Origin: Halanaerobiales bacterium | GTDB taxonomy: Bacteria; Bacillota; Halanaerobiia; Halanaerobiales; DTU029 | Length of the DNA stretch: 64,000 nt | Assembly: GCA_029981855.1 (NCBI GenBank) | Contig: JARRCS010000011.1 | Span: 1-64,000 of the forward strand | Direction of reading: 5' to 3' | Shown here: positions 21,381 to 22,512 of the stretch, in pieces | Position numbering within the stretch: position 1 is the first letter of the stretch | Layout: every line of letters starts with the position of its first letter | Translations under genes and position numbers: made by a program | Notes under the pieces: model-generated | Seen by the model: the letters and a program-made list of their open reading frames with translations, nothing else | What the model was told of the DNA's origin: nothing | Database searches by the model: none

Positions 21381-21929
21381 TTAGGCAGCCACATTCTCTT
21401 TATCCATAACTCCAAGACTATATTTAATTATTGAGTAAATAATAATACCGATAACTATATTACTTAATGCGGCAGGTAGAACTACACCGTAAAATAATGC
21501 CATAAAGGGTCCGGGTAAACCGACAATTAGAAGAGCTGAAGTTAAGAAAACAACTCCACTAATGATTGTTCCAACTGCCATGATAACTCCTGCTGCAATT
21601 TTATCATATAGAACATTGTTTGCTAGCTTATCATTTGCCCGATCCATTAATAAATAAATTAAACCAGAAACCGCAAAATATGTTATTATCTTATCGATAA
21701 TATTAGGTAATTGTCCGCCCGGAAAAGTTGTAGTTAAGGCAGTAAAAATACCTGTAGCTAAAGCAACTAAAAATCCTAATTTTCTATCCCTTTTAACCAT
21801 CAAAATAACAAACATCATTGACAAAGATAAATCCGGCTTCATCCCAAATAAAACACCCGGAAAAATATAATGTAAGACAATACCAATAGCCAACAACAAA
21901 GCTACCTGTGCTAAATCTTTAGCTCTCAT
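21381..21929 (-). CDS. trpP: tryptophan transporter TrpP
   Basis: 182 aa, five or six membrane segments. It matches the TrpP (B. subtilis YhaG) family along its length: GMKPDLSLSMMF (about 29-40), TGIFTALTTTFPGGQLPNIIDK (about 59-80, split by a membrane turn), GTIISGVVFLTSALLIVGLPG and VLPAALSN. It imports tryptophan. It stands alone between its own promoter/attenuator leader and its own terminator. AGGAGAG lies ten bases before the ATG. Confidence 0.92.
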   Translation of the reverse strand: MRAKDLAQVALLLAIGIVLHYIFPGVLFGMKPDLSLSMMFVILMVKRDRKLGFLVALATGIFTALTTTFPGGQLPNIIDKIITYFAVSGLIYLLMDRANDKLANNVLYDKIAAGVIMAVGTIISGVVFLTSALLIVGLPGPFMALFYGVVLPAALSNIVIGIIIYSIIKYSLGVMDKENVAA

Positions 21930-21973: not shown

Positions 21974-22000
21974 AAAAAAACCGTAACAAGCCTGTTACGG
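21974..22000 (-). terminator. leader terminator (attenuator) upstream of trpP
   Basis: CCGTAACA/TGTTACGG stem (21981-21988 with 21993-22000) and a run of seven T on the minus strand, located inside the trpP leader about 45 bases before the start codon. AGGCTT in its loop/right arm can alternatively pair with AAGCCT at about 22018-22023, which would open the terminator. Confidence 0.85.
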
Positions 22001-22025
22001 TAATAAACACCCTCAGCAAGGCTTT

Positions 22026-22066
22026 CTATACTAAACTTATCTCATCTGACTAAACTCAGCTAGCTA
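22026..22066 (-). promoter_or_regulatory. putative TRAP (MtrB) binding site, nine NAG repeats
   Basis: In the leader RNA, nine NAG triplets follow each other with one- or two-base spacers: UAG, UAG, GAG, UAG, CAG, GAG, AAG, UAG, UAG, from 22066 down to 22026; seven are (G/U)AG. This matches the TRAP recognition pattern. The last repeats adjoin the AAGCCU that could form an antiterminator, so TRAP plus tryptophan would favour termination. No mtrB gene is in the window. Confidence 0.65.
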
Positions 22067-22098
22067 TTAAATTTGAAATATAATCATAACCTGTACTC

Positions 22099-22127
22099 AT
22101 TATAACCAAATAAAATAACTTTGTCAA
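22099..22127 (-). promoter_or_regulatory. consensus sigma-A promoter of trpP
   Basis: TTGACA (22122-22127) and TATAAT (22099-22104) on the minus strand, both perfect, with a 17-base spacer. Predicted start near 22092, giving a leader of about 160 nt. Confidence 0.92.
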
Positions 22128-22164
22128 GGACTTATTATCATTTATAATTTATCACCTTTAACTC

Positions 22165-22512
22165 CTAATCATTATCTTTAACTTCCCGGGATTGTAACTC
22201 CGTTTCTTTTCCGGCTTCTCCCGCCTCTTTTTTCAGCTGAGCAATCCTCTTTTCCAGTACCCTGTTTGTTTCCTGGAGTTTCTCCCTCTCATTTTTAACA
22301 GCCCTGAGTTCCCTGCTTAACCTGATCTGTTTAATAGAGGTAACGAGCCCCATGATGATGGCTCCAAAAACAATCGCTCCTAAGACGATAATTACCAGCG
22401 AGACTTCATATTTCCAGGTAAAAATGGAAATAGATACGGTATTGGCATTTTGAATAGCAAAGATAGCTACTATCAGGGCAAAAAAGAGAATGATCAGTAT
22501 ATTCCTCTGCAC
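22165..22512 (-). CDS. LapA/DUF1049 family membrane protein
   Basis: 115 aa. Two membrane helices (about 4-20 and 35-58) with the family-typical FAIQNANTVSISIFTWKYEVSL between them, followed by a charged coiled-coil tail (about 66-115). GTG start with GGGGGG upstream. Distant relatives (LapA/YciS) act with LapB in lipopolysaccharide control; in this context the function is unknown. It is downstream of hisC. Confidence 0.8.
   Translation of the reverse strand: MQRNILIILFFALIVAIFAIQNANTVSISIFTWKYEVSLVIIVLGAIVFGAIIMGLVTSIKQIRLSRELRAVKNEREKLQETNRVLEKRIAQLKKEAGEAGKETELQSREVKDND

Follow-up and report, generated by a model that had tools for sequence, protein, structure and literature searches.

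The leader of the tryptophan transporter gene trpP in the window (i.e., the whole stretch of 64,000 nucleotides that we analyzed, from a bacterium of the salt-loving order Halanaerobiales) is probably a two-layer target of TRAP, in which attenuation of transcription is followed by a block of translation on one mRNA. With less assurance, we lean toward the more specific reading that TRAP acts via two separate sites, and that the attenuator is an addition of this lineage, placed between a promoter and a translational site that are both ancestral. Directly observed are the TRAP gene (mtrB), two NAG arrays, an intrinsic terminator and a promoter, as is the joint occurrence of mtrB and the NAG box at the ribosome-binding site. 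It should be noted that attenuation of the trp operon by TRAP and the translational block of trpP by TRAP are both already known. For B. subtilis, a block of trpP (yhaG) translation by TRAP is reported by Sarsero 2000 and Yakhnin 2004, as these studies are cited in PMC4347634 and PMC11255114, and the direct translational block is known for trpP, trpG and ycbK (PMC11255114).

Elements of the trpP leader

The trpP gene (21381..21929, minus strand) encodes a tryptophan transporter of 182 aa (PF17099, E 2.7e-50). Its sigma-A-type promoter, TTGACA-17-TATAAT at 22127-22099 on the same strand, matches the consensus in 12 of 12 positions, just as the original prediction had it, and transcription is predicted to start near 22094-22092. 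The gene of a LapA-domain membrane protein (22165..22512, minus strand; PF06305, E 8.2e-16), which is located 5' of this promoter with about 37 nt between its stop codon and the -35 box, is context and lies outside the switch. A promoter-like match on the opposite strand (window positions 22121-22148, plus strand; TTGTCA, 16, TATAAT; 11/12) overlaps the trpP promoter.

The first putative TRAP site (22066-22022, minus strand) consists of ten NAG triplets, with spacers of 1-2 nt. Nine of these triplets had been predicted, and all are found at the expected positions (22066, 22062, 22057, 22052, 22048, 22043, 22038, 22033, and 22028); the tenth, added here, is AAG at 22024 and overlaps the motif AAGCCT, which brings the composition to seven GAG/TAG, one CAG and two AAG. 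In the RNA targets of TRAP, (G/U)AG repeats number about 7-11 and are separated by 2-3 nt (PMC3913778, PMC4027176); the corresponding values for the upstream site are 10 NAG, including 7 KAG, and three spacers of 1 nt. This array is the top NAG chain on both strands of the window, with a score of 8.3, compared to a mean of 5.4 and a maximum of 7.5 in 60 Markov windows. Among 20,000 dinucleotide-shuffled leaders, 1 reached this score if spacers of 1-3 nt were permitted; with spacers restricted to 2-3 nt, the range that TRAP prefers, 567 of 20,000 did so, because three spacers of the array are 1 nt long. The upstream array is, consequently, imperfect (three 1-nt spacers and three AAG/CAG triplets), and its score is unremarkable at spacers of 2-3 nt.

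The array is located 5' of an intrinsic terminator (22001-21973, minus strand), which is the attenuator-type layout; the 5' arm of the hairpin starts about 20 nt past the array. The terminator that was predicted ahead of the trpP start is confirmed by a 9-bp stem with a 4-nt loop (22001-21980) followed by seven U (-11.5 kcal/mol). It is very unlikely that this hairpin serves to terminate the upstream hisC-lapA operon and plays no part in the control of trpP: although it is found on the same strand, about 160 nt past the point where the LapA-domain gene stops, its location 3' of the perfect trpP promoter means that it must act on trpP transcripts too, and no terminator was found ahead of trpP in family relatives with a short distance between promoter and start, such as G005.

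A second NAG array, at the ribosome-binding site and start codon of trpP, was overlooked in the original prediction. The core of this second putative TRAP site, AAGGAGAGATGAGTTGAGATGAG (21947-21925, minus strand), spans the Shine-Dalgarno sequence and the ATG, and more NAG triplets are located inside the coding sequence (21919, 21913, 21908, and 21904). The box is made of four GAG at exactly 2-nt spacing, followed by AAG, TAG, CAG and TAG. NAG repeats on the Shine-Dalgarno sequence and the start codon are the arrangement of the B. subtilis trpP type.

TRAP, the trpE leader, and folding of the leaders

The original prediction presupposed a TRAP gene, and mtrB is encoded in the genome (G000:C6:50205-50405, E 7.6e-39). 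The closest solved structures to its product are TRAPs, and a comparison with the B. subtilis sequence shows conservation of the stretches EKLD and IKVRG. Anti-TRAP was not found in this genome in a PF15777 search; the sole match, below the cut-off, falls within an open frame of 373 aa, most likely DnaJ.

Another leader with NAG repeats, a search for which had been suggested earlier, precedes trpE in the same genome (L036:1211-1460). Like the trpP leader, it combines a promoter with a NAG array and a terminator 3' of it, and the start of trpE is covered by a NAG box. The sole exact genome-wide match to the five-triplet TRAP pattern is located in this leader. When one mismatch was permitted, 15 matches were found versus 21 for the reversed pattern; thus, trpE and trpP are the only credible TRAP targets in the genome. 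One further candidate, C38:28328, was rejected as antisense within an apparent coding sequence. The local score between the trpP and trpE leaders was 29, compared to a maximum of 35 in 300 shuffles, and there is, therefore, no evidence that either leader was copied from the other.

Across the order Halanaerobiales, an array with a score of at least 6 followed by a terminator was found in 23 of 26 trpE leaders. Among the relatives, the trpE leader of G008 contains an array, a terminator and a start box, and that of G006 contains a start box only. Many trpE leaders of this order contain two terminators, one directly after the array and another about 100 nt further on (L103, L109, L110, L111, L113, L118, and L119, at roughly 100-400 nt 5' of the trpE match). 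In the trpE leaders of G003 and G004, the stretch between the terminators contains CTCTAATCTAAG, a sequence with complementarity to a portion of the TRAP array, which suggests that a single TRAP site could govern two terminators. In two genomes of family f4 (G029 and G028; L097:870-1530 and L098), mtrB is located directly 5' of the trpE leader, an adjacency that links TRAP with its putative target.

The candidate antiterminator strand of the trpP leader is AAGCCU (22024-22019, minus strand), which overlaps the tenth NAG. The pairing of this motif with AGGCUU of the hairpin, as originally predicted, stands with respect to complementarity, which is real, and AAGCCU:AGGCUU is part of the minimum-energy fold in partial transcripts ending at 21989-21983; its strength, on the other hand, is no better than chance, given that 1309 of 3000 shuffled arrays equalled the strongest pairing (-8.4 kcal/mol) that the array can form with the nascent terminator. 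In the full-length leader, folding favors the terminator form, whether or not TRAP is present, with a margin of about 6 kcal/mol, and masking of the repeats, suggested earlier as a check on the attenuator, barely shifted this equilibrium. In the trpE leader, the pairing of the array with the terminator is above chance (equalled by 67 of 3000 shuffled arrays), and the terminator form is also final at equilibrium. Because the trpE leader ends in the terminator form in the same way as the trpP leader, equilibrium folding cannot decide. The route from TRAP to termination is the weak step of our proposal, since the antiterminator does not exceed chance; we consider direct action of TRAP on the polymerase to be as likely as blocking of the antiterminator. 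In B. subtilis, TRAP is able to bring about termination in the absence of the trp attenuator too, and is reported to act on the polymerase directly (PMC3913778).

trpP leaders of genomes with and without mtrB

In the order Halanaerobiales, mtrB was detected in 32 of 38 genomes and trpP in 25 of 38; in a wider sample of the phylum, the numbers are 200 and 110 of 398, respectively. We compared 62 trpP leaders, including 12 from genomes without mtrB. The median number of KAG triplets around the trpP start was 10 in leaders from mtrB-containing genomes versus 3 in leaders from genomes without mtrB. Averaging by family (23 families), which limits the effect of shared ancestry, yielded means of 6-12 in 15 families with mtrB versus 1.5-6 in 8 families without it (p = 7e-5). 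Spacers of exactly 2 nt between KAG triplets, which TRAP prefers, account for 50% in the former group of leaders versus 5% (1/20) in the latter. It should be noted that arrays track mtrB across genomes for the ribosome-site box only. In alignments of the leader with those of relatives, this box is the element that is conserved. We scanned 84,980 genomes with an 18-mer taken from the box; it matched 42 stretches, 10 of them at trpP starts, and marked both trpP copies in two genomes with tandem trpP. Two tandem trpP copies with a NAG box on each were observed in four genomes of the Halanaerobium family (L006, L027, L019, L029, L012, L030, L013, and L028).

A T-box, an element that senses tRNA, was found at the Rfam cut-off (RF00230) in 9 of the 12 trpP leaders from genomes without mtrB, and in none of the loci L002, L009, L016, L026 and L036, which were tested from mtrB-containing genomes. 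In two relatives without mtrB (L003:1060-1470 and L005:1058-1460), a short frame follows the T-box that precedes trpP; it contains the tryptophan-rich peptide MDTWW(R/Q), which may be a leader peptide and a second tryptophan sensor. The genome G006 (L026:1150-1510) contains mtrB; its trpP-like gene is divergent and follows a leader that resembles a T-box without reaching the Rfam cut-off, which suggests a different transporter or a regulatory swap. For the trpP leader in the window, it is extremely improbable that a non-TRAP signal is sensed by a T-box, a riboswitch or a leader peptide. T-boxes do precede trpP where mtrB is absent; however, no Rfam family was found at the cut-off in this leader, RF00230 was unmatched, and the sole short frame (ATG ATT ATA TTT CAA ATT TAA, near 22085) contains no tryptophan codon. 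A match to Rfam atoC in the leader was rejected because it is far below the cut-off.

The expectation that orthologous trpP leaders would share the array is borne out for the ribosome-site box and fails for the upstream part: an intrinsic terminator 3' of a NAG array was found in 1 of 49 leaders from mtrB-containing genomes, namely the window's own, in a set that excludes the divergent trpP-like gene of G006 and in which the window's genus is represented by the source genome alone. In relatives from the same family, the trpP promoter is located roughly 20-25 nt from the Shine-Dalgarno sequence, and no terminator was found ahead of trpP in relatives with such a short distance between promoter and start, e.g., G005. 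The first 13 bases of the promoter, TTGACAAAGTTAT, are identical in G005, whose promoter is found about 25 nt from the Shine-Dalgarno sequence; thus, the extra roughly 115 nt are located between two ancestral elements. The trpP leaders of Halanaerobium contain a partial upstream array and an A-rich linker, and the terminator is absent. Parsimony favors the gain of the array-plus-terminator in the window's lineage, and this combination appears to be lineage-specific rather than conserved. Its position, 3' of the promoter and 5' of the translational box, gives it the look of an additional layer.

The conservation of the ribosome-site box, the partial array without a terminator in Halanaerobium, and the folding, which predicts no TRAP-dependent switch, would also fit control of trpP by TRAP at translation only, with the upstream array helping to recruit TRAP or being a remnant, and with a constitutive terminator keeping trpP low. 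We regard this account as rather unlikely, since a perfect promoter would be wasted if a constitutive seven-U terminator separated it directly from its own gene, ten NAG triplets make a near-complete TRAP site by themselves, and an array and a terminator are likewise coupled in the trpE leader of this genome.

Two-layer control and comparison with known systems

Under the proposed two-layer control, when tryptophan is abundant, Trp-bound TRAP would wrap the array 22066-22022 as it emerges from RNA polymerase, and transcription would halt at the hairpin 22001-21980, either because the antiterminator is blocked or through direct action of TRAP on the polymerase. TRAP bound to the upstream array would leave the terminator uncovered; thus, more termination is expected, as in the trp operon. 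On read-through messages, TRAP at 21947-21904 would cover the Shine-Dalgarno sequence and the start codon, and ribosomes would be excluded. When tryptophan is scarce, TRAP would be released, some polymerases would read through, and trpP would be translated. We infer that TRAP binds both sites, and likewise the sign of its effect on transcription and the mechanism of termination.

The original claim that Trp-bound TRAP favors termination of trpP transcripts is in agreement with the presence of mtrB, with the array-then-terminator order in both trpP and trpE, and with the association of mtrB absence with missing arrays and with T-boxes; the chance-level antiterminator is the part that did not hold. 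The additional claim, that termination represents a different level of control from the translational block of B. subtilis, has to be revised, because the translational box is present as well and is the conserved element. Given its presence and its conservation in relatives, trpP most likely has both layers, and the two-layer control most likely supplements the B. subtilis-type control and does not replace it.

In a literature search that covered few subscription journals, we found no description of TRAP-linked transcription attenuation of trpP and none of two separate TRAP sites for two layers in one leader. If the proposal is true, TRAP control of tryptophan uptake extends beyond translation, and one protein is used twice on one message. 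The leaders form a comparison series that includes a one-site translational trpP switch (most relatives), a two-part site without a terminator (Halanaerobium), and the two-layer leader described here; T-boxes occur where TRAP is absent, and the series makes a stepwise gain of the attenuator directly testable.

Leader-based control of trpP termination would be shared with T-box trpP leaders, although the T-box senses tRNA, not TRAP, and was found at the Rfam cut-off here only without mtrB. In common with the B. subtilis trp attenuator are a leader array followed by a terminator, the overlap of the array with a candidate antiterminator, and the proposed control of both transcription and translation. 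The target here, however, is a transporter gene instead of a biosynthetic operon, and the antiterminator is not convincing. The terminator has a perfect stem and seven U, whereas the B. subtilis attenuator is described as weak (PMC3913778, PMC4027176), and translation would be blocked by a second putative TRAP site on the ribosome site, compared to a hairpin hiding the ribosome site in the B. subtilis trp operon. With B. subtilis trpP, the leader shares the gene, the regulator, and the NAG repeats on the Shine-Dalgarno sequence and start codon; it differs in that the stretch from the promoter to the start also carries an extra putative TRAP site and a terminator of the intrinsic type, which implies that transcription is controlled too.
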